In this document: one piece after another, positions 12,750 through 53,003 of the stretch | Layout of the letters: each line of letters starts with the position of its first letter | Numbering within the stretch: position 1 is the stretch's first letter | Assembly (NCBI GenBank): GCA_947649205.1 | Contig: CANSQM010000003.1 | Coordinates: forward strand, 1-64,000 | Direction of reading: 5' to 3' | Source: an uncultured Enterorhabdus sp. | GTDB taxonomy: Bacteria > Actinomycetota > Coriobacteriia > Coriobacteriales > Eggerthellaceae | DNA: 64,000 bases | Program-made: the position numbers and the translations under genes | The notes under the pieces: model-generated | What the model was told of the DNA's origin: nothing | Databases searched by the model: none | What the model saw: the letters and a program-made list of their open reading frames with translations, nothing else

Positions 12750-13664
12750 TTAGGAACGTCCGATCTTGCGCCTCACGGCACGCAGTGCCCGCCGCGCCAG
12801 GGAGGGCTCCGATGCCGGGGCCGTGGCCTCGGCAATGGCAAAGCGATTCTTCTCCGAGGCACCATAGGTTTCTTGAATCAGCGCAAGCCGCTCGCGGGAG
12901 TCTGCCGTCTCGGCCAAGCGATCGGCCAAGCGCACCAAGCCCGAATCATCCCGCCCAGGCGCCCCGGCGTAGACCCACCTCCGATCTTTGCACACCTGGG
13001 AGCGCTCCGTCTGCTCCGGAGTCCACCCGTGCACACAGGCACCATCGAAGAACACGCCACGACCGATCTGTCGCGCCGGATTACCGGCCCAGCTCGTGTT
13101 GGAGGCGATGGTCTTGCCCGCCACCACGGCCCCGCCGCCCACAATGCTGCCCGAACCGATGGTGGTGCCCTTCAGCACCATGGCCGACTGCCCGAGCCAC
13201 ACGTGATCGCCGATCACCACATCGCGGCTGGGGTTGATGCGCCGTCCGTCCTCGGCGCGGTATACCAGATGCGGATCGGCCGTGCGAATCCACACATCGA
13301 AGGAGATGAGACCGCGATCGCCGATGAGCACGCTGCGTCGCTCGGATACGATCAGGTGCAGCGGGCCATTGGTATAGGTGTCCGATCCGATGGCGAAGGT
13401 GCAACCCCCGTGCACGGCGGCGTCAAGGCGAAGGCCGCTGTTGCCTCCGGCGATGAAAACCACGGCACCCGGACCGGCGAACGTGAGTTTCGTACTCGTC
13501 AGCACGACCCCTTCGCCGCAACAGAGCACGCAGCCTCCTTGCTGCGCCTTTTCCGTCACCACAATTTGAGAGCCCGCCATATCCGGTGCCGTACCGATCA
13601 GCGTCGCACCATCCCCGGAAAAGAACTGCTCCACGTCCTCTTTCGCCTTCAAGACGATGTTCAT
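12750..13664 (-). CDS. Left-handed beta-helix (hexapeptide) acyltransferase
   Basis: 304-aa protein with imperfect hexapeptide repeats from about residue 40 to 205, ending in VVIGDHVWLGQSAMVLKGTTIGSGSIVGGGAVV and AGNPARQI, typical of CoA-dependent sugar O- or N-acetyltransferases. A charged helical tail ends in basic residues (LRAVRRKIGRS). Nine nt downstream of the DHHW gene and in the same run as two MBOAT systems, so it probably acetylates a cytoplasmic precursor of the same envelope polymer. The acceptor is unknown. Confidence 0.8.
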   Translation of the reverse strand: MNIVLKAKEDVEQFFSGDGATLIGTAPDMAGSQIVVTEKAQQGGCVLCCGEGVVLTSTKLTFAGPGAVVFIAGGNSGLRLDAAVHGGCTFAIGSDTYTNGPLHLIVSERRSVLIGDRGLISFDVWIRTADPHLVYRAEDGRRINPSRDVVIGDHVWLGQSAMVLKGTTIGSGSIVGGGAVVAGKTIASNTSWAGNPARQIGRGVFFDGACVHGWTPEQTERSQVCKDRRWVYAGAPGRDDSGLVRLADRLAETADSRERLALIQETYGASEKNRFAIAEATAPASEPSLARRALRAVRRKIGRS

Positions 13665-13673
13665 GGCATCCCC

Positions 13674-14927
13674 CTATCCCTGGGCCGACGCGGGAGCGAG
13701 CGCCTGCTCTGTTGCCTGGGCGAGCAAATTCGGACTGCGCATGATGAAAATGATGTCGGAGACGCCCTCGTGATCGGCGAGGAACTCGTCGAGCGTCTCG
13801 CGATCATGGCGCGGATCGAGCACATAGGTCGTTCGATAGTGGGCAGCCAAGAGACGCTCCATGCAATTCGAATAGGAGTCGGCGACAATGAGCAGGTTGC
13901 GATCGGTATCGGCCTCTTCGTTCACAAGGGTGATCAGGCCGTAGTCGGTGTGGTAGTACTCGGCATAGCGACTCGTAAAGGCGTTGGGCCCCCAGGTGCC
14001 CCACTCGTAATTCTTATGGTGCACGAGGGAATCCATTGAGCCCTCAGCGCCGTCGATAGTCACCGAGAACTTCGGGAAATCGGCGAACTCATAGTCCAGG
14101 ATATGGTCCTCATAGGCAGTCTCCAGACCGCGGCGGGCGAACGTCCCGCGGAAGGGAGGATCGTCATAGGTCACCAGGTCCTTCGGAGCGAGCGTATCGT
14201 CCCCGAAGCCGAGGGCGCCGGCCATACGCTCGTAGGCTTGGAAGGCGCCCAAGATGTTCCAGTGATGGTCAACTTTGTTCCAGCCCCGGGTGAATTCATC
14301 GAAGGTAACATTGCCCCCAATCCACTCGAAGGCACCGTCATGCTCCTCGAAGAGGTTCTCAGTACCCTCGTAGGTAAGGGCATTGGAAACGAGCTTAGCC
14401 GTCGGCGAGCCTTCGACGTTCATGGAGTCGGGGCCGAGATAGACAAAGACCCGTTGGTCGGGATGGCGCTTGCCAAAAGCATCCAGGCCATCGCGCACGC
14501 GACCGATGGCATCGCGCACGCTATCCGTGGCCTTCTCCGCCGTTTCCAGCAGACGCCCCTCGCTCGGCATCTTCACAATCGACGAGCCGTAGAAGGTCGG
14601 ATAGCACTCCCATCCGAATAAGATGTTGGAAGCCTCGATGGCGCTGCGCTGCACCGCGGCATTCGCCAGAAGCGCCGTGGCCTTCAGAGGGACGCAGTTG
14701 CCCACGGCATCTTCGGCCGCCTCCTGGAACTCGCCGGAAGCAAAGCCCTCGACGCTGAAATGAGCCGCCGGATCGGCCTCGGTTAGGCCGCCGGACAGGT
14801 AAGCGGCATCAGCAGCGGTGAGCCACGAGGGAAGTGCTACCCCCCCCCATGAGGCTAATCCGATCAGGGCCGGCCCGCAGAAGAGCAGGCAGAGCACGCC
14901 CGAGAGCAGGATGTTCCTTGCCTTCAC
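13674..14927 (-). CDS. DHHW/AlgJ-like O-acyltransferase partner, poly-G tract in frame
   Basis: 417-aa exported or membrane-anchored protein: hydrophobic N-terminus (about 6-24) followed by an SGNH-like domain. KVDHHW (about 217-222) is the DHHW-family signature and VADSYSN (about 356) supplies a Ser at the position expected for AlgJ/AlgX-type transferases. Such proteins accept an acyl group from an MBOAT partner and pass it to an extracellular glycan; the MBOAT gene ends 8 nt upstream. The coding strand carries nine Gs (14848-14840, codons 27-30), and the next bases are TAG in another register, so losing one G gives an immediate stop. Confidence 0.82.
   Translation of the reverse strand: MKARNILLSGVLCLLFCGPALIGLASWGGVALPSWLTAADAAYLSGGLTEADPAAHFSVEGFASGEFQEAAEDAVGNCVPLKATALLANAAVQRSAIEASNILFGWECYPTFYGSSIVKMPSEGRLLETAEKATDSVRDAIGRVRDGLDAFGKRHPDQRVFVYLGPDSMNVEGSPTAKLVSNALTYEGTENLFEEHDGAFEWIGGNVTFDEFTRGWNKVDHHWNILGAFQAYERMAGALGFGDDTLAPKDLVTYDDPPFRGTFARRGLETAYEDHILDYEFADFPKFSVTIDGAEGSMDSLVHHKNYEWGTWGPNAFTSRYAEYYHTDYGLITLVNEEADTDRNLLIVADSYSNCMERLLAAHYRTTYVLDPRHDRETLDEFLADHEGVSDIIFIMRSPNLLAQATEQALAPASAQG
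14840..14848 (-). repeat. G9 homopolymer (coding strand) in the DHHW gene
   Basis: Nine Cs on the plus strand read as G9 in codons W-G-G-V. With eight Gs the frame reads TGG GGG GGG TAG, an instant stop; with ten it stops within about ten codons. The tract is in frame and ON as given. It has the length and placement of contingency tracts that switch by slipped-strand replication. Confidence 0.85.
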
Positions 14928-14935
14928 GACACTCC

Positions 14936-16465
14936 TTAGAACTGGAAGTAGATGAACGGGTTGTAGGAGCTAGAGACGATCGCCATGGCCGACAGCACGA
15001 ACACGGCCACAAGCGCCACGTCCACCAGGGCATTCACCGCCGCGAGCACGCGGGCGCGACCCGGCGCCACGACGACGCCCTCGCAGAGGGCTTGGCAGGG
15101 AGGCACGGCGGAGTTGCCCTTGGCCGGCGCCGCCACGATGGAGCGGTGACTATCGCCCTCGGCCCAGGCCTCCAGCTTCTTGCGCAGATAGGGCGCCCAG
15201 GGCAGCGACCCCACGATGAAAATGGGAACGAGGGACACATAGCTCCACGACTGGAGCTCCCACAGGGTGGAGGTGCCGAGCCAACCGTAGGCACCGAAGA
15301 GGGCCGCCGTCCACTCGGCCACGTTGGAGAGCCCCGTCACGGCGAATAGGAGCCAGCCGAAGAAGAACAGCACCGCACACCAGATGTGGCTCACGAAGCC
15401 GGGCAGGCGGTCGAGCAGCCTCATGATGAAGAACTTCTCCAGCAGGATGAGTATGCCCCAATACAGGCCCCACAGCACGAAGTTCCAAGCCGCCCCATGC
15501 CAGATGCCCGTGAGCCCCCACACGATCATGGTGTTCACGATGAAGCGCGGAACCGACACGCGGTTGCCGCCGAGGGGGATGTACACATAGTCGCGGAAGA
15601 AGCCGCCCAGGGTCATGTGCCAGCGGCGCCAGAACTCTGTGGCCGACCGAGCGGTGTAGGGGTAGTTGAAGTTGCGCGGATAATCGAAGCCCATCATCTT
15701 GCCCATGCCGATGGCCATATCTGAATAGCCCGAGAAGTCGAAGTAGATCTGGAAGGTGTAGGCCGCCACGCCCGAGAAGCAACCGATGAAGCCGATCGTG
15801 GCGGCATCTTGGGCGAGCAGCGAGTCGGCGAGCACGCCGGCCGTATTGGCCAAGAGCACCTTCTTGCCCAGGCCCACACAGAACAGGCGCAGTCCCTGGG
15901 CAAAGCCGGCCAGAGTGGCGCGGCGATGGTCGATCTCGTATTCAATATCGGAGTAACGCACGATGGGCCCGGCCACCAGCTGCGGAAACATGGCAATATA
16001 CATGCCCAGGTACAGGGGGTTCTTCTGCACCTTCACTTCGCCGCGGTACACGTCCACGATGTAGGTGAGCGCCTGCAAGGTGAAAAACGAGATGCCGATG
16101 GGCAGGGCCAGCTGCAGATCGGCCAGAAACTCCTCGCCCAAGACGGCGTTGATGTTCTGCGCGAGAAAGCCCTGGTACTTCCAGAAGCCGAGGATGGCCA
16201 GATTCGCCACCACGGCCAAACCGAGAAACAGCTTGCGCCAAGGGCCGCTGCGCAGACCGGCCCGAGAAATACAGAGAGCCAGAGCCCAGTTCATAAGGAT
16301 GGAACCCACCATGAGCCACACGTACACCGGCTCTCCCCAAGCATAGAATACCAGGGAGAACACCAACAGCGCCACATTGCGTGCTGCCCGCCAGGGCATG
16401 GCGAAATACACCGCCAAGAACAGCGGGAAGAACGCGAAGAGGAAAATCGTACTCGAGAAAACCAC
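14936..16465 (-). CDS. MBOAT O-acyltransferase, AlgI-like
   Basis: 509-aa polytopic MBOAT protein with about a dozen helices, the size of AlgI/PatA rather than DltB. Signatures are DFSGYSDMAIGMGKMMGF (about 240), NFNYPYTARSATEFWRRWH, and GIWHGAAWNFVLWG (about 320), whose His is the MBOAT catalytic residue. It moves acyl groups across the membrane for delivery to surface glycans by the DHHW protein downstream. GTG 16465 has AAGGAG. Its 195-nt upstream gap holds two strong palindromes, so it may be transcribed partly independently of dltC. Confidence 0.92.
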   Translation of the reverse strand: MVFSSTIFLFAFFPLFLAVYFAMPWRAARNVALLVFSLVFYAWGEPVYVWLMVGSILMNWALALCISRAGLRSGPWRKLFLGLAVVANLAILGFWKYQGFLAQNINAVLGEEFLADLQLALPIGISFFTLQALTYIVDVYRGEVKVQKNPLYLGMYIAMFPQLVAGPIVRYSDIEYEIDHRRATLAGFAQGLRLFCVGLGKKVLLANTAGVLADSLLAQDAATIGFIGCFSGVAAYTFQIYFDFSGYSDMAIGMGKMMGFDYPRNFNYPYTARSATEFWRRWHMTLGGFFRDYVYIPLGGNRVSVPRFIVNTMIVWGLTGIWHGAAWNFVLWGLYWGILILLEKFFIMRLLDRLPGFVSHIWCAVLFFFGWLLFAVTGLSNVAEWTAALFGAYGWLGTSTLWELQSWSYVSLVPIFIVGSLPWAPYLRKKLEAWAEGDSHRSIVAAPAKGNSAVPPCQALCEGVVVAPGRARVLAAVNALVDVALVAVFVLSAMAIVSSSYNPFIYFQF

Positions 16466-16521
16466 CGAGCGCTCCTTGTTTCAAATGTTCACGGTACAAT
16501 CGCATAGGGATGATACCGTAA

Positions 16522-16541
16522 TCTGCGTCGCGCGACGCAGA
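16522..16541. repeat. 20-bp perfect palindrome between dltC and the AlgI-like gene
   Basis: The 20 bases centred on GTCGCGCGAC are self-complementary with no loop. It lies 57 nt before the AlgI-like start codon and not next to a T-run, so it looks more like an operator than a terminator. Confidence 0.5.
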
Positions 16542-16627
16542 GATTCTGCCGAAAACAAGGAGGCTCCCCCGCTGTGGAACTGAAGGGGTTCGATCTCCCA
16601 AATCGCACCGAACAGCTGCGCGAGCTG

Positions 16628-16659
16628 CTCGCCCGGGGCCGCGAAGCGCCCCGGGCGAG
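16628..16659 (-). other. Strong GC hairpin immediately after dltC
   Basis: CTCGCCCGGGGC (16628-16639) pairs perfectly with GCCCCGGGCGAG (16648-16659). It begins 1 nt past the dltC stop and has no T-run on the minus strand. Possible transcript-end stabiliser or partial terminator that lowers expression of the genes after dltC. Confidence 0.55.
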
Positions 16660-16660
16660 G

Positions 16661-16915
16661 CTATTGGGCGTCGTAGCGAATCTGCACCTGGTAGATGATC
16701 TTGTTCACCGTGTTCATCTCCTCGCGCTCCACTGCCGTGGGCGCAATGGTCACACCGAACTCCGTCTCGATGGCCACAAGCAGCTCGATGGCGGCCATGG
16801 AATCCAGCAGGCCCTCCTCGAACAGGTCCACGTCCCGCTCCTCGCGGATAACATCATCGTCGCAGATCTCCTCGATCAGCTCGAGCATGCGCTCTTCAAC
16901 GGAATTCTCAGCCAT
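16661..16915 (-). CDS. dltC: D-alanyl carrier protein
   Basis: 84-aa acyl-carrier-type four-helix protein. The phosphopantetheine attachment site is the DSM motif in FEEGLLDSMAAIELLVAI (Ser 39). It carries D-alanine as a thioester from DltA to DltB at the membrane. ATG 16915 overlaps the end of dltB by 8 nt, indicating translational coupling. Length and position after dltB match known dlt operons. Confidence 0.95.
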   Translation of the reverse strand: MAENSVEERMLELIEEICDDDVIREERDVDLFEEGLLDSMAAIELLVAIETEFGVTIAPTAVEREEMNTVNKIIYQVQIRYDAQ

Positions 16916-18092
16916 GGATCAAACCTCCTACAACGGTGTGCATCTGTCCGGAAAAGATGGCCATGCCCAGCATGACCACGTTAATGGTAACAAACCATTG
17001 AACGACCTTGTACCAGTTCTCCTTCTTGTGCCGCTTATGGAAGGCGGACTTCTTCTGATAGACGTCGGTGGCGCCCATGAGCACGCCGTAGTAGGCGCCA
17101 TAGACCAGGTAATCCACTGTCAATCCATGCCATGCGCCCATGAGCAGAAAATTCGCCATATAGCCGGCGCAAGCTGTGTGCAGACGATCCTTGAACAGCT
17201 TCCGCCGCGTGGCTGACTTCACCGCCCGCATGAACACAAAATCCCGCAACCAGGTGGACAGTGTCATATGCCACCGGTCCCAGAAATCGCGCACGTCGGT
17301 GGCCAGGAAGGGCGCGCGGAAATTGCGCGGCGTCTTGATGCCGAAGCAGTAGCTTGCCCCCATGGCCATGAGCGAGTAGCCAGCGAAATCGAAGAACAGG
17401 TAGAAGCCGTACATGTAGGCATCTTTCACCTGGGCGCCGAGCTCGGTCCACCAGGGCCCATCGCCCAAAGGCGCCGGCGTGAAGTAGTGGTGAAACACGG
17501 TGCCGAGCACTTTCTGGTACACCGCGCCCACGAGCAACAGCATGATGCCCCGGGCCAGCAGATCGGCGTACTCCGAGGCGGTGTAGGTGCGATTCGCGTC
17601 CTCGGCAAAGCGCCGGCTGCGATCGATGGGGCCAGAGGTGAACGGCGTGAAGAACACGAGGAAGTAGAGGTAGTCGGCGAAGTTCATATCCTCGATAAGG
17701 TCATCGCGAATCTCGATGATAACCTGCACGGCCTTGAAAGTGATATAGGATATGCCGAGAAAGCCCATGAGGTTATGGTCGAACACGGCGCCGATCTTGT
17801 AAACCACCAGCGGGGCAATGACCGCAACGAGGGCGCAGCGGAACTTCCACAGGGCCTTCTGCCCGCTCTTCCAGCTGGCAAGTTCCCAGAACGTGGCGGC
17901 GCAGGCAATGGCAAGGAAGGCCGCGAAGGCGAGCATGCCCTCCACGTTCTCGCCGAACAAGAGCAGCAGGAATGCGAGGGACGCCGCCAGGCCATAGTAC
18001 TTGATGCGGTGGCCCGAAAAGCCGAGCACCGCCGCCGGCACGATGGCCACGGCGAGAAAGACGTAGAAAGCGGGGTCGATATAGAAATTCAT
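16908..18092 (-). CDS. dltB: D-alanyl transfer MBOAT protein
   Basis: 394-aa polytopic MBOAT protein, the standard DltB size. DFAGYSLMAMGASYCFGI (about 225), NFRAPFLATDVRDFWDRWHMTLSTWLRDFV as the core funnel, and GAWHGLTVDYLVYG (about 335) with the catalytic His are all present. It moves D-alanine from DltC across the membrane toward (lipo)teichoic acid. It starts 14 nt after dltA and overlaps dltC. Confidence 0.95.
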   Translation of the reverse strand: MNFYIDPAFYVFLAVAIVPAAVLGFSGHRIKYYGLAASLAFLLLLFGENVEGMLAFAAFLAIACAATFWELASWKSGQKALWKFRCALVAVIAPLVVYKIGAVFDHNLMGFLGISYITFKAVQVIIEIRDDLIEDMNFADYLYFLVFFTPFTSGPIDRSRRFAEDANRTYTASEYADLLARGIMLLLVGAVYQKVLGTVFHHYFTPAPLGDGPWWTELGAQVKDAYMYGFYLFFDFAGYSLMAMGASYCFGIKTPRNFRAPFLATDVRDFWDRWHMTLSTWLRDFVFMRAVKSATRRKLFKDRLHTACAGYMANFLLMGAWHGLTVDYLVYGAYYGVLMGATDVYQKKSAFHKRHKKENWYKVVQWFVTINVVMLGMAIFSGQMHTVVGGLIHG

Positions 18093-18106
18093 GGTACGCG
18101 GCCGCC

Positions 18107-19651
18107 CTACGCCAAGGCCTTGCGATCGATCTTGCCGTTGACGTTCAGGGCGAACTCATCGTGGTAGACGATCTTCTTGGGCACCATGTACTCGGGAACC
18201 AACTCCTTGAGGGCGGCCTTGATGGACCGGGACGTGGCGAAGTCGCCCGGCACCGCCGGGTCGGCAAGGCGCACGTGAGCCACCAGATGGCTCACCTTTC
18301 CATCCCGCTCGGCGGCCAGCACCACGGCCTCCCCCACCGCAGGCACGCGCACGAGGGCCTGTTCCACATCGGCCAACTCCACCCGGAACCCGTTGAGCTT
18401 CACCTGGAAATCGAGGCGGCCGAGGCAGAAGAGGCGACCCTCCCCATCGAGATAGCCCTTGTCGCCGGTCTTATAGCAGCGCACCGGCGCGCCGTCCTCT
18501 CCCTCGATCTCGGAAAAGACCGCCTCGGTCAGATCAGGGCGCGCCCAATAGCCGGCCGACACCGTGTCACCGGCGAGGTAGATCTCCCCCACTTCCCCGC
18601 ACGGCAGCACCGCGCCTGTCTCCGGATCGCGCACGATGGCGGCCATGGCGCCACCCAGATACCCGACCGGCAGCGGGTTCTCTTCCGTTGCCAGGACCTC
18701 GTCGACGACGATATCGGTGACAGCCTGGGTCTCGGTGGGACCGTAGGTGTTCAAGATGCGGGCAGACGGAAAGCGCTCGATAAGCTTCAGGGCCGTGGCA
18801 TTGCGGAACACCTCGCCGCAGAGGATGACGTTGTCGAGCCGCGGCAGCAACTCCTCGTTGAAGGCGGGGTCGGCCAGGCACATCTCGATGAAGGAGGGTG
18901 TGGAGATCCACGTCGTCAGACCGCTGGCGGCCAGGGCGTCGAAGGCGGCCCGCATGGATTGCTCGTCCTCACTTTCCAAGGCGAACAAGGTGTAGCCCCG
19001 GGCGAGCCCCGCGATGATGTCGAAGAGGCTCACGTCGAAAGTGTAGGGCACGCGGTTGAAGCTCACGCCGTCTTCCCGAACCGGGAACAGGCCGGTGAAG
19101 TAATCCATGAAGGCATCTACGCAACGGGAGGGCATCTGCACACCCTTGGGACGCCCCGTAGAACCGGAGGTGAACAGCAGGTAGAAGGGCGTATCGCCAT
19201 CGATCCAGCGCTCCCGACCCATCGAACGGCCCGCGGCGATGGCCGTCTGCACCGCCTCGGCTCCCACGACTGAGGCGGCTAGGGACTCATCGCCAGCAAA
19301 GCCCTCGTCTGCCAGGGAGATGACGAGGGGATGATCGATCTGGGCCAAGATGTCGTTCACTCGGTCAGCCGGATAGGCTATGTCCACGGGGGCATAGGTG
19401 AGCCCCGCCTTGGCTGCGGCGATGAAGCATACAAGCATGAGCGGCGACTTGTGCCCGTAAATCACCACGGGCTTTCCCGCGGGGGCCGTGTCAGCCAGAT
19501 ACGCCGCTAGGGCATCCGACCACGCATCCAGCTCGCCGTAGGTCAGACGATGGGAGCTACCCCCCCCCGTGCGCGAATTGAGAAATGCGAGGCGATCAGG
19601 ATGGGCCGCCGCCTCCTTCACCAGCACTTCCAAAAACCTGCTCACGTCCAC
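18107..19651 (-). CDS. dltA: D-alanine--carrier ligase, poly-G tract in frame
   Basis: 514-aa adenylating enzyme that activates D-alanine with ATP and loads DltC. Motifs are LLFTSGSTGRPKGVQMP (P-loop, about 158), NTYGPTETQ (about 295), YKTGDKGYLDGEGRLFCLGRLDFQVKLNG (about 395-425) and the C-terminal catalytic Lys in NVNGKIDRKAL. GTG 19651 and GTG 19645 are both possible starts. Codons 28-31 contain nine consecutive Gs (19568-19560): one G fewer stops after about five codons, one more reads TAG at once. Since DltA is needed for the whole pathway, its switching would turn D-alanylation on or off. Confidence 0.95.
   Translation of the reverse strand: MDVSRFLEVLVKEAAAHPDRLAFLNSRTGGGSSHRLTYGELDAWSDALAAYLADTAPAGKPVVIYGHKSPLMLVCFIAAAKAGLTYAPVDIAYPADRVNDILAQIDHPLVISLADEGFAGDESLAASVVGAEAVQTAIAAGRSMGRERWIDGDTPFYLLFTSGSTGRPKGVQMPSRCVDAFMDYFTGLFPVREDGVSFNRVPYTFDVSLFDIIAGLARGYTLFALESEDEQSMRAAFDALAASGLTTWISTPSFIEMCLADPAFNEELLPRLDNVILCGEVFRNATALKLIERFPSARILNTYGPTETQAVTDIVVDEVLATEENPLPVGYLGGAMAAIVRDPETGAVLPCGEVGEIYLAGDTVSAGYWARPDLTEAVFSEIEGEDGAPVRCYKTGDKGYLDGEGRLFCLGRLDFQVKLNGFRVELADVEQALVRVPAVGEAVVLAAERDGKVSHLVAHVRLADPAVPGDFATSRSIKAALKELVPEYMVPKKIVYHDEFALNVNGKIDRKALA
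19560..19568 (-). repeat. dltA: G9 homopolymer (coding strand) in dltA
   Basis: Nine Cs on the plus strand form G9 in codons T-G-G-G of dltA. The flank is identical to that of the DHHW-gene tract (G9 followed by TAGC). The tract is in frame in this copy; ten Gs would bring the TAG into frame. Confidence 0.85.
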
Positions 19652-19742: not shown

Positions 19743-19907
19743 CTAGAAGTTCTCGTACACTGGAGCGGCCGGCTCGCCGAACCCCGAATAAACGAGAAAC
19801 CACACGAGTAGCGCCAGCAGAGCGGCAGCCGCAACGAACCACAGAAGGGCCCCCGCCCACGTATCGCTGAAGAAGATCTCTGCGATCTTGTCGGCCAGCT
19901 TCCTCAC
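19743..19907 (-). CDS. dltX: DltX-like small membrane protein
   Basis: 54-aa protein: short amphipathic N-terminus (RKLADKIAEIFF), one transmembrane helix (about 21-40), and a C-terminus ending PVYENF. Known DltX proteins are about 50 aa with one helix and a conserved C-terminal aromatic motif of the FIYNEF kind, which this matches in position and character; DltX relays D-alanine outside the membrane. GTG 19907 overlaps the dltD stop as GTGA. DltX usually precedes dltA, as here. Recognised by pattern, not by search. Confidence 0.8.
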   Translation of the reverse strand: MRKLADKIAEIFFSDTWAGALLWFVAAAALLALLVWFLVYSGFGEPAAPVYENF

Positions 19908-21133
19908 TTCTGACCCTCCTTCCCCATAAAGAACTCGTAAATGTCCCGGTTCACCTGCACCCAGCCGGTCCAACCGAAATGGGCCATATCGTAGAGGAAA
20001 TAGGGATCATATTCATAGGGCGAGTAATCCACATAGGCCACGCCCCGTTTCTCGCAGATGGCCTTCATGCGGTCGTACCACAGGGCGCGCACCTCGGGAG
20101 TGTAATCGGTCTGGTCGATCATGGCGCCCTTCAAGGGCATGAGCACCACCAACGGCTCGATGCCCGTCTCCTCGCACACATCGAGGAACAGCTCGAAGTC
20201 CTCGAACTCCGTCTCCTGGTAAGGCTCGTCGGTAAATGTGAGCCACTCGTCCCATCCGTCGCGCCAGCTGTCGTAGCCGCCGTTCTCGTACCAGCTGTTG
20301 TAGATGCCCATCTCGTTGCTGGACGTCTGATCAGCCCCCTCGGCTTTCTCCTGGGCCAGCCATGCGTCCCAATCGGGAGCTTGGGCCTGACCAGCCGTGC
20401 GACCCTCGGGTACCGGACGGCTCCGATTCAGCTCGCGCTCTGGCGCGTTCCAATCGTCCTCCTCGTCGGAAAGCACAGCGTCCCAGTTCTTCGAGTCATC
20501 AAAGAACTCCTGGATACCGCTGTTGATGCGCTCGACGAGATTCTCACTCTTGGCCTCGCCGCCGTAAACCTCGGCCTCTTCCACGCCGTAGGCGATCATC
20601 TTCTCCTGGATCTTCGCCTTGGTCTCGTCGGTCACCTTGGGATTCGCCATGAGATCGGCATAGGCCTCGGGCGAGAAAGAAAGGCGGAAGCACTTGGCCG
20701 GGTTCTGATAGTCCATAAACCAGGTAATACCGCAGAAGAAGACCACCTTGTCATCGGGGATGTCCTCGGAGAGTGCGCCCACTTCGATGGCGTGCCACAG
20801 ATCCTGGCAGTAGGGCTGTCCCAAAAGGAAGGTGTCCATGCCGTAGTTGTTGTTTCCGAAGAAGTTGGCGGGATGCGAGGAAACGGTGTCCGGGTACACC
20901 CAGCGAAACTCCGAGGTACCGAGAACTACCTTGCAATTGTCGCCTTGCGCATTGCGCTGCTTGATGGCGGCGCGCACATAATCGGGAGAATTCGAGCGGG
21001 CCTTCGCGGGCCAAATCTGATAGGGAGCGTCGGCGATCTTCTTCTCGAGGGCCGACGAAGATGCCGGGGCGCCCATGGCAATGGGCACGCAGATCAGGGC
21101 AATCGCCAGAACAACGGCGATAAGACGCTTCAA
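19904..21133 (-). CDS. dltD: D-alanylation protein DltD
   Basis: 409-aa exported, membrane-anchored SGNH-like protein that transfers D-alanine to the teichoic acid outside. It has a hydrophobic N-terminal anchor (about 3-20), LGTSEFRW (about 71) as the Ser motif corresponding to GSSEL, and YDMAHFGWTGWVQV near 385 with the catalytic Asp/His. The start is TTG 21133 with AAAGGA upstream. A GCGGAGGG/CCCTCCGC hairpin lies just before the ribosome site. Unusually it is first in the operon, ahead of dltX and dltA. Confidence 0.93.
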   Translation of the reverse strand: MKRLIAVVLAIALICVPIAMGAPASSSALEKKIADAPYQIWPAKARSNSPDYVRAAIKQRNAQGDNCKVVLGTSEFRWVYPDTVSSHPANFFGNNNYGMDTFLLGQPYCQDLWHAIEVGALSEDIPDDKVVFFCGITWFMDYQNPAKCFRLSFSPEAYADLMANPKVTDETKAKIQEKMIAYGVEEAEVYGGEAKSENLVERINSGIQEFFDDSKNWDAVLSDEEDDWNAPERELNRSRPVPEGRTAGQAQAPDWDAWLAQEKAEGADQTSSNEMGIYNSWYENGGYDSWRDGWDEWLTFTDEPYQETEFEDFELFLDVCEETGIEPLVVLMPLKGAMIDQTDYTPEVRALWYDRMKAICEKRGVAYVDYSPYEYDPYFLYDMAHFGWTGWVQVNRDIYEFFMGKEGQK

Positions 21134-21430: not shown

Positions 21431-24136
21431 CTAACGAGCGCGACCGTCAGCGCGGCGACGAGCGGACAGGGAGGCCGCAGCGTCGAAGATGCGCTTGCTG
21501 CTCTGGTAGTCTGAGAAGCCGAACATGGCATCGGCCCGCTTCTGGTACTCCGGCTCCAAGGCGCAGTCGCTCTCCATATAGCGGATGATGGCATCCACCG
21601 TGTCGTCGAGGGTACGGGTCACCGGGCCGAAGCCGTCGGTGTCGTAGTCGAAGTAGCTGTCCTCGCCGTAGGTGTGGCCGCCGCTGAACACCGAATCGTA
21701 CTGGCTGTACACCACGGGCTTGCGCTGGTAGCCAAAGTCGAAGCCTACACCGGAATAATCGGTCACCATGAGGGCCGACTCACTCAGCACGCGCTCGTAG
21801 TCGGCCGACCCCTCCCCCACTGTGACCAGGGCGTTGCCCGTGAAGTCACCGGCCTGCTTCTCGAAGGCCGGGTGCACGTAGAACTCCGCCGTGTAGCCGC
21901 AGCGCTCCATAGCCGCCAACAGGCGCTCGTCGTTGATGAGGGCGTTGTAGAACTTCCAGAAGTCCGTGGACTTGAAGTGGTGCACGTACTCGCGGGTGCT
22001 CGTACCGGGAATGATCTTGCCGGCAATGTTCGAGCGCCACGTGGGCAGAAACGCGATCTTCTTCTGCGTTTGGGCGTTCCCGTAAGCATCGTAGCGGGCC
22101 ATGCCCATGAGGGCCACCTCGCCCTCTTCGTAACCGTAGGCCTCGCCCAGAAGCGCCCGGCGTTCCATCTGGGTGCTCACCGAGAACAGCTTGATCTTCT
22201 TGGCCGGCTTGCCCAGCATGAAAGCCAAATCCCCGAAGAGCGTGCCGTGGGTCAGGTAAACGAAATCGTAATCCATCAGGTCCTTCACGAACACGAGCTC
22301 GGGCCCGTAGGGGTTCACCATGGCTTCCTCTGCCCGGGACGACACCACCACCGACGACAGGAGGAACAGCAGCTTGTAGCGGAACGTGGACGGATCGACC
22401 ACCTTGCCGTAGGCCGCCACCGAGGCGTAGTCGGCGCTCGACTTCTCCAAGGCGAAATACATCTTCGCATCGCGGTAGCCGGACTGCTTCATGGCGTAGC
22501 GGTACACGTTCTCGGCGTTGTCCCCGGCCTTCCACTCCTTGTCGCCGAAGATCCAGATAGGCTTCTTGAACAGGGCACGGTGAGCGCGGTAGCACAGGCG
22601 CAGCCACACGTATTGCAGGCGCAGCGGCGCCGTCCCCTTCTTCGAGCGCAGAATCTCGGCCCATCGGCGAAGCTCCGAGGCAACGGCCATGGGCAGCGTG
22701 GCCCGATAAGTGCGCAACTGCTTGCCGATGTGCTTCACCATAACGTCGCCGAATCGATGGTAGTCCCGCTTCATGGATTGGCTGAACAATGCGAAGTTCC
22801 CGTAATGGGGCGTGAGGATGACCTCCTGGGCGCGGCCGCAGAACCGAACGCGGAACGAGTAGGAGCGCTCGGGTTCCAGCGGCACATCGAAGGTGAAGCG
22901 CATACCCGCACAGACCGCCTGCTTGTCCAGCATGCGCCGGTCGTCGGTGGGATACGGGGACACCCGGGCCGCAAAGCACTCGTCGCTCTTCTCGTCCCGC
23001 ACGAATAGCTCGAAGGGCATGCCCAGGATATCGATATCGGTGGTGCCCTCGATATGGAGCACGTCGCCCGCAGGAGCGACCTCGTAGAGATAGCACGGAG
23101 CTTTCGCGTTCATGCTGACGAGCTGCATGCCGTCCAAAAGACCGCGGTCGCGATCGACCCACACCAGATCCTCGAATACGCCCACGCCGTACTTCAGACG
23201 GTACAGCACAAGCTTCTTCTCGCGGGTGAGCCAGCGCGCCGCGGCGATGACGCCTTCATCGGCCTGCACCACGATTTCGCGCACAGCGGCTGCCCACGCC
23301 TCGCCCTCCTCAGCCGTGAAGGCGTCGCTGGCCTTTCCAAGCAACTGCCAGCCGATGATGTAGAGGGCCACGGCCTGGGCGAAGGGCAGCACGCGACCGC
23401 GCGCCTCGCGCGATGCGGCGAGCATGCGGCGGCACACCTCCAGATTCTGCATGTGCTTGGCATAGGTGATGACCTGGCTGAGCGACGAGCCGTCCTGTCG
23501 CTTGCGGTACAGATACGAGCAGAAGGGAGTCACCCCGTAGGCGCATTTGTGCAGAATGACCCGGTTCACGAACAGCGTGTCCTCCGAGGTAGTCAAATCC
23601 TCGTCGAAGCGGATGTCCCCGATGGCCTTGCGCAAAAAGAAACAGTTGCCGATGGTGCTCTGGATATCGCAGGGGCGGTCGCCCAGACGCACGATGGAGT
23701 CCTTGTCCTTGGGGAAGCGGTAGGCCAGCGGATGGGTGTGATCTTCCCCCTCGAACAAGGTGAGCTCGCCGACGAGCACGTCCACATTGTTCTCCTGGTT
23801 GTCGAAGAACTCCAGGGCATGGGCGAACGACTCGCACGACCACTGGTCGTCGCTGTCCAGGCAGGTGACGATGCGGCCGCACGCGCGGTCCAGGCCGGCA
23901 TTGCGAGCCGACGACACCCCGCTGTTGGGCTGCTGGTGGAACACGACGTTTGCCGGGAAGCGTTCTTGGAATGCGCGGCACACGGCGGCGCTGCCGTCAG
24001 TAGAACCGTCGTCCACGAGAACGACCTGGATGTTCTCCATCCCCACGGTTTGGGCGACCACCGATTCCAGGGTCTCCCCCAAATACTCTTCGGCGTTGTA
24101 CACGGGAATCACGACGGAAATGGCAAATTCTGACAC
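21431..24136 (-). CDS. GT2 glycosyltransferase fused to CDP-glycerol glycerophosphotransferase (TagF-like)
   Basis: 901-aa two-domain enzyme. Residues 1-about 300 are a GT2 domain (VVIPVYNAEEYLGE, VDDGSTDGS, LDSDDQW). A linker of about 150 residues is followed by a TagF/TagB domain (about 490-880) with GDNAENVYRYA, YLTHGTLFGDLAFMLGKPAKKI, FLPTWRSN and VTDYSGVGFDFGYQRKPVV. It should extend a polyol-phosphate polymer from CDP-glycerol or a related donor and add a sugar, in the cytoplasm. GTG 24136 follows GGAGGG by 6 nt; an upstream frame to 24190 lacks a ribosome site. Its polymer is the likely substrate of the neighbouring dlt genes. Confidence 0.9.
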   Translation of the reverse strand: MSEFAISVVIPVYNAEEYLGETLESVVAQTVGMENIQVVLVDDGSTDGSAAVCRAFQERFPANVVFHQQPNSGVSSARNAGLDRACGRIVTCLDSDDQWSCESFAHALEFFDNQENNVDVLVGELTLFEGEDHTHPLAYRFPKDKDSIVRLGDRPCDIQSTIGNCFFLRKAIGDIRFDEDLTTSEDTLFVNRVILHKCAYGVTPFCSYLYRKRQDGSSLSQVITYAKHMQNLEVCRRMLAASREARGRVLPFAQAVALYIIGWQLLGKASDAFTAEEGEAWAAAVREIVVQADEGVIAAARWLTREKKLVLYRLKYGVGVFEDLVWVDRDRGLLDGMQLVSMNAKAPCYLYEVAPAGDVLHIEGTTDIDILGMPFELFVRDEKSDECFAARVSPYPTDDRRMLDKQAVCAGMRFTFDVPLEPERSYSFRVRFCGRAQEVILTPHYGNFALFSQSMKRDYHRFGDVMVKHIGKQLRTYRATLPMAVASELRRWAEILRSKKGTAPLRLQYVWLRLCYRAHRALFKKPIWIFGDKEWKAGDNAENVYRYAMKQSGYRDAKMYFALEKSSADYASVAAYGKVVDPSTFRYKLLFLLSSVVVSSRAEEAMVNPYGPELVFVKDLMDYDFVYLTHGTLFGDLAFMLGKPAKKIKLFSVSTQMERRALLGEAYGYEEGEVALMGMARYDAYGNAQTQKKIAFLPTWRSNIAGKIIPGTSTREYVHHFKSTDFWKFYNALINDERLLAAMERCGYTAEFYVHPAFEKQAGDFTGNALVTVGEGSADYERVLSESALMVTDYSGVGFDFGYQRKPVVYSQYDSVFSGGHTYGEDSYFDYDTDGFGPVTRTLDDTVDAIIRYMESDCALEPEYQKRADAMFGFSDYQSSKRIFDAAASLSARRRADGRAR

Positions 24137-24210
24137 TCTTGTCCCTCCAGCTTGGGAATACGCTTCACGGAGCGCGGGCGACGCGGGCATGCCGCGGCGC
24201 GGGCACAGCC

Positions 24211-50220: not shown

Positions 50221-51900
50221 TCAAACCTCATCAGAGTCGGCGAAGACCCAATCCGTCTCACGCCGGCGTCCCAAGCAACCAGAGGGCGCATCGGGCCAGG
50301 GGATCTTACAGACGATCGAGCCGCGCCCCTCATAGTACCGACAAGCGGCAAGCTCCTCCCTGCCAAACTCGGGAGAATAGCGGCACGAAACCGCGCGAGA
50401 ACCCCAAGAATGCTGGAAAGATGGCGACACATGCACAGCGGACACAATGCGAGCAGCAGCTTCTGTTTCATCGACAATCTGCACGCCATCATCGGTCACT
50501 TGAAGGCAACGGGAAATGACATTTCCCCGCCAATCGCGCATCTTCGCCCGGAAAACCCCGTCGTGACAGGAGACAGCCAAAATTTGCGCCATATGGCCCG
50601 TGCGGAATGAGGCCCAGCATTGCGTTTGCTCCCCACCTTCAAGAGACGGCGCATTGTGAGCGAGTGTTTGCTTGTAGCAAAGCCTCGATTCGTCTTGATA
50701 GGCAAACGTCCCGCTATTGACCAGCCACGGTTCTCCATCGAGAAACACCTCAAACGAAAGCATATCGCAGTGGACATGGCCTGCGGCATAGCGGGGGCCC
50801 GGCTGTCCCCCATCACAGATAACCTTCACCTCTGTGCCGCCGATATCTCGCTCAATAATGAAATAGCCTGCATCGGGAAGCCTGTCCTTGAAGACCGGAG
50901 TCACACCGAGATGGGAGGCTGCGCAAGAAAGCAGCGCGTCGCGACTCTTTGCCACATTGTCCCCGGCATCATTAAAGAGGGGCGTTCTCTTGGTCTTCCG
51001 CTCGAGGGAATAGAGGCAGTCGCACATATCTTGCAATCGATAGCGGGATATGACGTCTCCCCCCAAGGCCGTTCCATTCAATGCCGATGCAGCCCTCAAC
51101 AGTGACTCCAGCATCACTTTATGATACATAGGCGATAGCTCAAAATGCATGCCATCGGGAAGTATCTGCTCTCGAATCTGCCGATCCAGGGATCTTAGCG
51201 CGATCTGCAACGTAGCCCCATCATCGAAATAACGCGCAAGCAAAACGAGGGCCTTCAAATTCTCGAGATAGTGGTTGGCAAGGAGGTCTTTCTCAAGATG
51301 ATGGGAGAGAAAGGCGTACTGCTCCGAGAGAGAGGCATTCATGCGTCCGATAAAGGAGGGGTCGTCCTCCAGCAGCTCGCGCGCCTCGCCATAAAATGCA
51401 AGCCAGTTGGTTACCCGCATAGATATGACGTACGGATCCCATCCCACCGCACCACGTTGAGGAGGATTCGCATCAATCCAACAGCTTATGATGTCTTTCG
51501 CTTTATCAAAGTACCTCGCATCCCCTGTTTCCAAAGTGGCATGCAAGAGCGGCAGCACATATTCGCAGTAATGGAGATTAAACCTCCAGAGGGCAGTGGC
51601 TACTCCCCCATCATGCCACGATTCACGCCAGTCAACTGCCATTTCCCGATGAAGCAGCTCGACACGGTTCTCGAGAAGAGCGTCCACATCGAAACGCCCC
51701 AGAAACTCAGGATCAAAATCCAACTCGGGTAAGGCGGGAATACGAGAGATATCCACCCGGTCAAGCGCAGGGCATACCGGCTTCATGCGAGAAAGGGGTG
51801 TTGCCCCGCCCAGCCGGCGCCATACACGATAAGCTACTTGGTTCGGCTTAAGATGGGAAACCGTTGCGGCGTACAGCCTCATTTTGCCAAGGACGCTCAT
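50221..51900 (-). CDS. Heparinase II/III-family protein 2
   Basis: 559-aa cytoplasmic protein of the same fold class as the 42518-44389 product but clearly divergent. The N-terminus has the LKPNQVAYRVWRRL opening common in this family; RYAAGHVHCDMLSFEVFLDGEPWLVNSGTFAYQDESR (about 375-410) contains the catalytic-type His and the beta-sheet signature. Its ATG overlaps the wecB stop as ATGA. Two such genes in one locus suggest two distinct uronate-containing intermediates or a paired activity. Confidence 0.87.
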   Translation of the reverse strand: MSVLGKMRLYAATVSHLKPNQVAYRVWRRLGGATPLSRMKPVCPALDRVDISRIPALPELDFDPEFLGRFDVDALLENRVELLHREMAVDWRESWHDGGVATALWRFNLHYCEYVLPLLHATLETGDARYFDKAKDIISCWIDANPPQRGAVGWDPYVISMRVTNWLAFYGEARELLEDDPSFIGRMNASLSEQYAFLSHHLEKDLLANHYLENLKALVLLARYFDDGATLQIALRSLDRQIREQILPDGMHFELSPMYHKVMLESLLRAASALNGTALGGDVISRYRLQDMCDCLYSLERKTKRTPLFNDAGDNVAKSRDALLSCAASHLGVTPVFKDRLPDAGYFIIERDIGGTEVKVICDGGQPGPRYAAGHVHCDMLSFEVFLDGEPWLVNSGTFAYQDESRLCYKQTLAHNAPSLEGGEQTQCWASFRTGHMAQILAVSCHDGVFRAKMRDWRGNVISRCLQVTDDGVQIVDETEAAARIVSAVHVSPSFQHSWGSRAVSCRYSPEFGREELAACRYYEGRGSIVCKIPWPDAPSGCLGRRRETDWVFADSDEV

Positions 51901-53003
51901 CGAACGCTTTCCAAAATCGAGGCAATACGGGCGGAGGCGAAGCCATCGCCATAGGGATTCGATGCCTGGGACATGGCGCGGTAGACAGAATCATCCTCTA
52001 GCAGTTCCGTAAAGGCTCGGTAGATCGTCTCCTCCTGAGTCCCCACCAACTTCAAAGTCCCCGCCTCGACGCCCTCAGGGCGCTCCGTTGTATCCCGCAT
52101 GACCAAGACGGGCTTGCCCAAACCAGGAGCCTCTTCTTGGATGCCGCCAGAATCGGTCAACACGAGGTGACTCGCAGCCAAAAAATTATGGAAATCGAGC
52201 ACGGCAAGGGGCTCAATAATGCGCAGCCGATCAAAGCCGTCCAACTCAGCATGGGCGGCGCTGCGCACCAGGGGGTTCATATGTATGGGATAGATAGCTT
52301 TCACATCAGAGTGCTCTTCCAAGACACGACGAATAGCGCGGAAGAGCCGATGCATCGGCTCACCGAGGTTCTCTCTGCGATGGGCCGTAATGAGAACCAG
52401 GCGGCTCCCCTCAGCCCAAGAAAGATCGGGATGCACATAGCCCTCTTGGACCGTAGTGCGCAAGGCATCGATCCCCGTGTTTCCCGTCACGTAAATGTGC
52501 TCAGCAGGCTTTCCCTCGTCAATAAGATTCTGGCGGGCCTGGTCAGTAGGGGCAAAATAGTATTGTGAAATCACATCGACTGCTTGACGATTAAACTCCT
52601 CGGGCCACGGCGAATAAAGATCACGAGTGCGGAGACCAGCTTCGACATGGCCCACCGGGATCTGCAGATAGAAGCACGCAAGCGCGGCCGCGAAAGATGT
52701 CGACGTGTCGCCATGCACGAGGACGATATCCGGCCTGCTTTCCTCTAGAACACCCTTTATGTCCAGAAGAACGTCGCAGGTAATATCAAAAAGCGTCTGG
52801 CTCGGCTGCATTACCGACAAATCGTAGTCTGGAACAACGGAGAATGCCCGGAGAACCTGATCGAGCATTTGGCGATGCTGCCCAGTAACGCAGACAACGG
52901 TCTCGAACGCCCCCGGATTGTCCTTCAGCTCATGCACCAAGGGACACATCTTGATCGCCTCAGGTCGAGTCCCGAAGACAAGCATGACTTTTTTTCGTTG
53001 CAT
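51897..53003 (-). CDS. wecB: UDP-N-acetylglucosamine 2-epimerase (non-hydrolysing)
   Basis: 368-aa GT-B-fold enzyme interconverting UDP-GlcNAc and UDP-ManNAc. MLVFGTRPEAIKMCPLVHEL, HGDTSTSFAAALACFY, GHVEAGLRTRD, TAHRRENLGEP and LTDSGGIQEEAPGLGKPVLVMRDTTERPEGVEAGT are all canonical. ATG 53003 is chosen over a longer frame that runs into wecC. It supplies WecC, 13 nt upstream in the operon. Confidence 0.96.
   Translation of the reverse strand: MQRKKVMLVFGTRPEAIKMCPLVHELKDNPGAFETVVCVTGQHRQMLDQVLRAFSVVPDYDLSVMQPSQTLFDITCDVLLDIKGVLEESRPDIVLVHGDTSTSFAAALACFYLQIPVGHVEAGLRTRDLYSPWPEEFNRQAVDVISQYYFAPTDQARQNLIDEGKPAEHIYVTGNTGIDALRTTVQEGYVHPDLSWAEGSRLVLITAHRRENLGEPMHRLFRAIRRVLEEHSDVKAIYPIHMNPLVRSAAHAELDGFDRLRIIEPLAVLDFHNFLAASHLVLTDSGGIQEEAPGLGKPVLVMRDTTERPEGVEAGTLKLVGTQEETIYRAFTELLEDDSVYRAMSQASNPYGDGFASARIASILESVR

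Follow-up and report, generated by a model that had tools for sequence, protein, structure and literature searches.

Candidate phase-variable poly-G tracts in dltA and a PatB1-like acyltransferase gene within the poly-G repertoire of a gut Eggerthellaceae bacterium

Introduction

Gram-positive bacteria have in D-alanylation one of their main protections against cationic peptides, and this modification is usually viewed as regulated rather than switched. The locus described here, from a gut bacterium related to Adlercreutzia (genome G000), raises the question of whether this modification, together with a second envelope acylation, might instead be turned on and off by changes in the length of homopolymeric tracts. 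Two genes of this locus, dltA and a gene for a DHHW-type acyltransferase, each contain a run of nine Gs (G9) near the 5' end, and a preliminary description of this DNA had interpreted them as paired switches of a contingency system. This interpretation is examined below based upon the genes and tracts of the window (i.e., the whole 64 kb stretch of DNA that was analysed), the frequency of long G-runs in the genome and the corresponding sites in related genomes.

Genes and tracts at the locus

The features of the locus are listed in Table 1. All of these genes are on one strand and, in the order of their transcription, they encode the glycosyltransferase/CDP-glycerol transferase, DltD, the DltX-like protein, DltA, DltB, DltC, MBOAT2, the DHHW protein and the hexapeptide acyltransferase.

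Table 1. Genes and G9 tracts of the locus, with their positions in the window.
Feature	Position	Strand	Basis or remarks
hexapeptide-type acyltransferase, downstream of DHHW	12750..13664	-	PF00132
DHHW / PatB1-like outer-face O-acyltransferase	13674..14927	-	PF14286; predicted model nearest PatB1
G9 tract in DHHW gene	14840..14848	-	nt 80-88, codons 27-30; read from sequence
MBOAT2, PatA-like, C-terminus FIYFQF	14936..16465	-	PF03062
dltC carrier protein	16661..16915	-	NCBIfam DltC above cut-off
dltB	16908..18092	-	TIGR04091, 468 vs cut-off 375 bits
dltA, D-alanine carrier-protein ligase	18107..19651	-	AMP-binding; best solved relatives DltA
G9 tract in dltA	19560..19568	-	nt 84-92, codons 28-31; read from sequence
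DltX-like small membrane protein, ends PVYENF	19743..19949	-	position and tail
dltD	19904..21133	-	PF04914; TIGR04092, 214.8 vs cut-off 150 bits
glycosyltransferase + CDP-glycerol glycerophosphotransferase	21431..24190	-	PF00535, PF04464

The DltB, DltC, and DltD proteins all scored above their NCBIfam cut-offs. DltA, which is full length, scored below both of its cut-offs (466 of 476 and 462 of 559.85 bits) and its closest solved relatives are DltA enzymes; its start may lie two codons further downstream, as the copy from A. hattorii aligns from the second GTG. MBOAT2 reached only 142 of 375 bits on the DltB model, which rules it out as a DltB. It is PatA-like, and its C-terminal tail fits FXYXXF, the acyl-shuttle motif described for DltX and PatA-like proteins (PMC12148441). 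The 68 aa DltX-like protein, for which no match was found in Pfam or NCBIfam, does not have this motif, as its tail is without the first F.

In the DHHW protein, the residues D220, H221, and H222 as well as D350 and S351 were invariant in 20 homologues. The AlphaFold model of this protein (mean pLDDT 88.2) has a predicted PatB/AlgJ-type fold with the conserved D-H and S residues, and its best structural match was PatB1 from B. cereus (E 2.8e-15, TM by query length 0.53), followed by another DHHW protein and then by weak matches to AlgX and AlgJ. The combination of an MBOAT protein with an FXYXXF tail and an SGNH-type partner resembles the PatA/PatB systems (PMC12148441), for which no phase variation is described in the part of the source drawn upon here. 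The two tracts therefore hit two acyl-transfer pathways, viz. D-alanylation, of which dltA encodes the first cytoplasmic enzyme, and a predicted PatA/PatB-like O-acylation, of which the DHHW protein is the outer enzyme.

The preliminary description had placed both genes in the same operon. The common strand agrees with this, but a gap of 195 nt separates dltC from MBOAT2 and a strong hairpin (z -1.85, no T-run) is present just after the dltC stop codon; because of this gap and hairpin, the locus may form two transcripts. Scanning for promoters yielded a single weak site, and shuffled sequences gave more.

Both tracts are runs of nine Cs on the plus strand and hence of nine Gs on the coding strand. 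Their number and approximate location (codons 27–31) were as originally described, and reading of the frames agreed that TAG comes into frame immediately with ten Gs in dltA and with eight Gs in the DHHW gene. In both genes the addition or removal of one or two bases leads to a stop at codon 30–40, so that a run of about eight or more bases inside the gene is combined with a stop that depends upon frame. The four bases TAGC directly follow G9 in both genes of the window, as had been pointed out, but in the DHHW gene of A. hattorii the tract is followed by TTGC, and TAGC as a conserved element is thus ruled out.

Long G-runs in the window and in the genome

G/C runs of six number ten in the window and those of nine number two, with no run of intermediate length; the claim that it has no other comparable run was thus confirmed, since apart from the dltA and DHHW tracts no run exceeds six. 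In 200 dinucleotide shuffles of the window, runs of nine or more occurred with a mean of 0.9, and two or more of them were present in 45 of the 200. Because of this frequency, the G9 pair by itself is weak evidence and is not improbable by chance, and composition was dropped as proof of switching. Runs of seven or more numbered two in the window as against a mean of 11.1 in the same shuffles. What is unusual is the shape of the spectrum, which has a gap at seven to eight and a peak at nine, and this is seen genome-wide as well.

In the complete set of 70 contigs of this genome (2,735,181 bases), the numbers of exact G-runs were 19 (G7), 7 (G8), 25 (G9), 4 (G10), 5 (G11), and 3 (G12), with 12 runs of ten or more. 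The 25 exact G9 runs compare with 2.6 expected if the drop from seven to eight had continued, i.e., long runs are in excess over the number predicted from the shorter ones. About 44 tracts of at least eight Gs are present; 42 of these were viewed in place and the remaining two are G9. This rules out the window pair as unique in the genome.

The same trait, although uneven, was observed in other genomes. In 36 genomes of the family there were 423 exact G9 as against 723 exact G7 runs, and G9 reached at least half of G7 in 19 of the 36; for 24 genomes from other families the corresponding numbers were 142 and 543, with G9 at least half of G7 in six of the 24. G007, which is of the same genus, has no exact G9 and 12 exact G7 runs, and A. 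hattorii has four and 21, respectively. The largest numbers of exact G9 runs were found in G012 (86) and G034 (70), as compared with no more than 33 in any of the remaining 58 genomes of this search.

Several of the other tracts in G000 fall within the signal peptide or leader of a large secreted protein, BspA-type leucine-rich repeat proteins among them, and others are intergenic or in ambiguous ORFs. Leaders of secreted proteins are the usual company of contingency loci. Apart from a YDG domain and the LRR/DUF285 group, Pfam searches on ten large ORFs near these tracts identified nothing. A repeated leader with G11–G12 (CCCCTTGC-G-run-CACTTATTTGCTA; L180 and L194 on contigs C40 and C58) lies ahead of or close to BspA-type LRR/DUF285 surface proteins, with six copies of the run. 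Three very large secreted ORFs also have a G9 run within or close to their signal peptide, at codon 26 of at least 1365 (L174:3905-7999), codon 29 of at least 1369 (L190:3894-8000), and codon 16 of 1241 (L176:3985-7710). A second family of tracts, agaaaactcga-Y-G9-tctc (L175, L195, L196), lies 190–193 nt before the starts of large ORFs on the opposite strand.

The dltA tract in related genomes

A search of 138 genomes of the family with dltA (E 1e-100) gave 39 matches in 37 genomes. Eight of these are close orthologues (58–100% identical) from five genera and they form one clade with 100/99 support. A run of 9–10 is present at the same loop in six of the eight. The in-frame copies are the G9 of G000 and G157 and the G10 of G011, and the out-of-frame copies are the G10 of A. 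mucosicola DSM 19490 (G005) and the nine Cs of Slackia piriformis YIT 12062 (G130); in G024 the assembly splits within the run. Comparison of tract lengths with related genomes, which had been proposed as a check, thus revealed G9, G10, and poly-C forms, three in frame and two out of frame besides the split copy, this variation being between species and in assembled consensus sequences. The two out-of-frame copies are not old pseudogenes, because the rest of the gene after the tract remains open for more than 480 codons in both.

No tract is present in the dltA of A. hattorii (G001; 79% identical) or G111, and its distribution requires three changes on the tree, e.g., one gain and two losses. 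According to the preliminary description, synonymous interruption of the tract in close relatives would argue against switching; these two copies do speak against switching in that they are without the tract, but they are not synonymously interrupted versions of it. Among the 31 more distant matches, none of the 23 that were examined had a G/C run as long as seven at this site, which rules out the tract as a general feature of dltA. Among 78 contig loci, a long run was found inside a dltA-like gene in four, three of which are assemblies already counted above; the fourth is a Lachnospiraceae MAG (L066) with G9 near codon 196 of its DltA-like gene. In G024, a G8 run (C9:51282-51289) is located between two pieces (50953-51285 and 51369-52442) of a second DltA-like gene, and this is perhaps another switch.

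These results bear on the alternative that the runs arose by chance, or by selection at the protein level for a glycine-rich turn written in GGG codons, with no switching. The dltA run sits in a turn that varies in length and directly precedes the conserved LTYGEL; this turn tolerates glycine, 69 of the 365 codons for glycine in ten genes of the operon are GGG, and the shuffles described above readily yielded pairs of G9 runs. However, the DltA proteins of A. hattorii and G111 have no glycine at the turn, and what is kept at this site is the run rather than the glycine, because S. piriformis has poly-C. The rarity of G7 and G8 relative to G9 in the genome also speaks against this alternative, and we consider it extremely improbable.

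Another alternative is provided by slippage of RNA polymerase or the ribosome, which long homopolymers can cause. A mixture of frames would then be produced from a single length of DNA, setting the level of expression with no heritable switch, and copies that are out of frame in the DNA need not be fully off. However, the assembled DNA differs in length at orthologous sites and contigs part within the run, both of which point to a change in DNA, and a run with a regulatory role should hold one length. We therefore regard this explanation as improbable, although slippage at the RNA level could add leakiness to a switch operating on DNA.

Tracts in the DHHW and MBOAT genes of related genomes

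Thirty DHHW homologues were examined among the 34 matches listed. The gene from A. hattorii (74% identical) carries an in-frame G9 at the corresponding codons, and the assembly concerned is a complete chromosome. In the other 28 of the 30 (26–49% identical), no run of seven or more was present at that site; with two of 30 carrying one, a widespread DHHW tract is ruled out.

For MBOAT genes, runs were found in seven of 90 loci at five places, near residues 62, 71, 74, 78, 214, 301 and 345. The four in G008, G073, G097 and G011 are in frame, the two in G158 and in a G111 paralogue of 34% identity are out of frame, and the one in G004 is split between contigs. In the 29 loci with at least 50% identity, six runs occurred in 43.7 kb of gene as compared with three in 82.2 kb of flanking sequence, an enrichment that is marginal (binomial p 0.05). 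At the run density of G000 only 0.7 runs would be expected (p 9e-5), a comparison in which the densities of the other genomes may differ. In G011, runs are present in both dltA and MBOAT2, which are about 31 kb apart.

Contigs that part inside tracts

In the G024 assembly, contig C15 stops after nine Cs of the dltA run. Contig C3 starts with the same 127 bases and adds a tenth C, following the out-of-frame path. An overlap of this kind, ending in the run, can be left by a de Bruijn assembler where reads are split by tract length. Similarly, MBOAT2 of G004 is cut within its run between contigs C40 and C61. As signs of mixed tract lengths both splits, including the 127-base overlap, are suggestive only, and the one in G024 could also stem from PCR or read errors. 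The sequence TTCGCGCAC precedes both the MBOAT2 run of G004 (L320, at the end of C40) and the dltA run of the window, by chance or through shared origin.

If such errors in sequencing or assembly of homopolymers were general, the out-of-frame copies and contig breaks would be technical and the genes would always be on. Next-generation calls at tracts of this type can be unreliable, as noted in work on Gardnerella (PMC11287997), and stutter from PCR could cause a split in the assembly graph. However, this explanation leaves the tracts themselves, their shared site across genera and the genome-wide G9 peak unexplained, and the in-frame DHHW tract of A. hattorii comes from a complete chromosome; we hold it to be very improbable.

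Proposed switching of envelope acylation

Based upon the recurrence of the tracts at these sites in related species, their differing length or base, the occurrence of both frames, the parting contigs and the G9 peak, it is highly probable that D-alanylation and PatA/PatB-like O-acylation are subject to slipped-strand phase variation, within a large poly-G repertoire. The contingency reading of the preliminary description is thus upheld by the tracts and frames seen in relatives, but not its emphasis on the pair, which is not special among about 44 tracts. The tracts, their effect on the frame, the conserved sites, both frames in relatives and the G9 peak form the part of this interpretation that is read from sequence.

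Under the proposed mechanism, slipped-strand mispairing at replication would add or remove Gs in the dltA and DHHW tracts, and the resulting shift of frame would end the protein after about 30–40 residues. With DltA lost, D-alanine would not be loaded onto DltC and D-alanylation would stop; with the DHHW protein lost, MBOAT2 would be without its outer-face partner and the second, PatA/PatB-like O-acylation would stop. We infer that such changes are reversible, and likewise their rate, the enzyme activities and the polymer modified; the benefit may lie in charge, phage receptors or immune recognition.

A broader proposal is that the Eggerthellaceae possess a poly-G contingency repertoire with envelope acylation as its preferred target, in which the switch is kept in the pathway and moves between genes. 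Sites are found in dltA, in the DHHW gene and at five places in MBOAT-type genes, and both pathways carry tracts in G000 (dltA and DHHW) and G011 (dltA and MBOAT2), which could give these two genomes up to four envelope charge/acyl states. We regard the case for and against this proposal as evenly balanced.

Comparison with known systems

Homopolymeric contingency loci are known in Campylobacter, Helicobacter, and Neisseria (PMC2823697). The tracts described here resemble them in that poly-G or poly-C runs of about 8–12 are present in the 5' part of genes for surface structures, with on/off states that depend upon frame, and in that there are tens of loci per genome; they differ in belonging to another phylum, in their targets (dltA and MBOAT/DHHW), and in being known from assembled consensus. 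Within the Actinobacteria, homopolymer tracts have been reported from Gardnerella, where runs of at least eight (median of 20 G/C tracts) are found near genes for surface proteins and one tract was verified by Sanger sequencing at 9 and 10 (PMC11287997). However, Gardnerella belongs to another class, its tracts are mostly upstream of genes, and the section of that paper on tracts names no dlt or MBOAT targets.

In the same family, Eggerthella lenta shows reversible surface variation by inversion-based switching of its capsule (PMC13174815, preprint) as well as phage-borne recombinase and retroelement variation (PMC8778435). In contrast to the tracts reported here, the capsule system is based upon inversion, and in the part of that preprint drawn upon slipped-strand mispairing appears only as a general mechanism and the word 'homopolymer' is absent (PMC13174815). 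In pneumococci, invasion is accompanied by recurrent within-host inactivation of dltA, dltB, and dltD, but the mutations are spread over the operon (36 in 31 pairs) and no tract switch is named in the portion of the study consulted (PMC5361624). A search of open-licence papers found neither tract-switched dlt genes nor any account of poly-G tracts in Coriobacteriia. The mechanism proposed is therefore of a known kind, whereas the target pair and the clade are unusual.

The Eggerthellaceae have been studied for their metabolism of drugs and diet. If gut members of this family flip D-alanylation at random, one colony would be a mixture of envelope types and the type-strain assembly of A. mucosicola would be dltA-off, which would bear on phage sensitivity, immune recognition and the comparison of strains.
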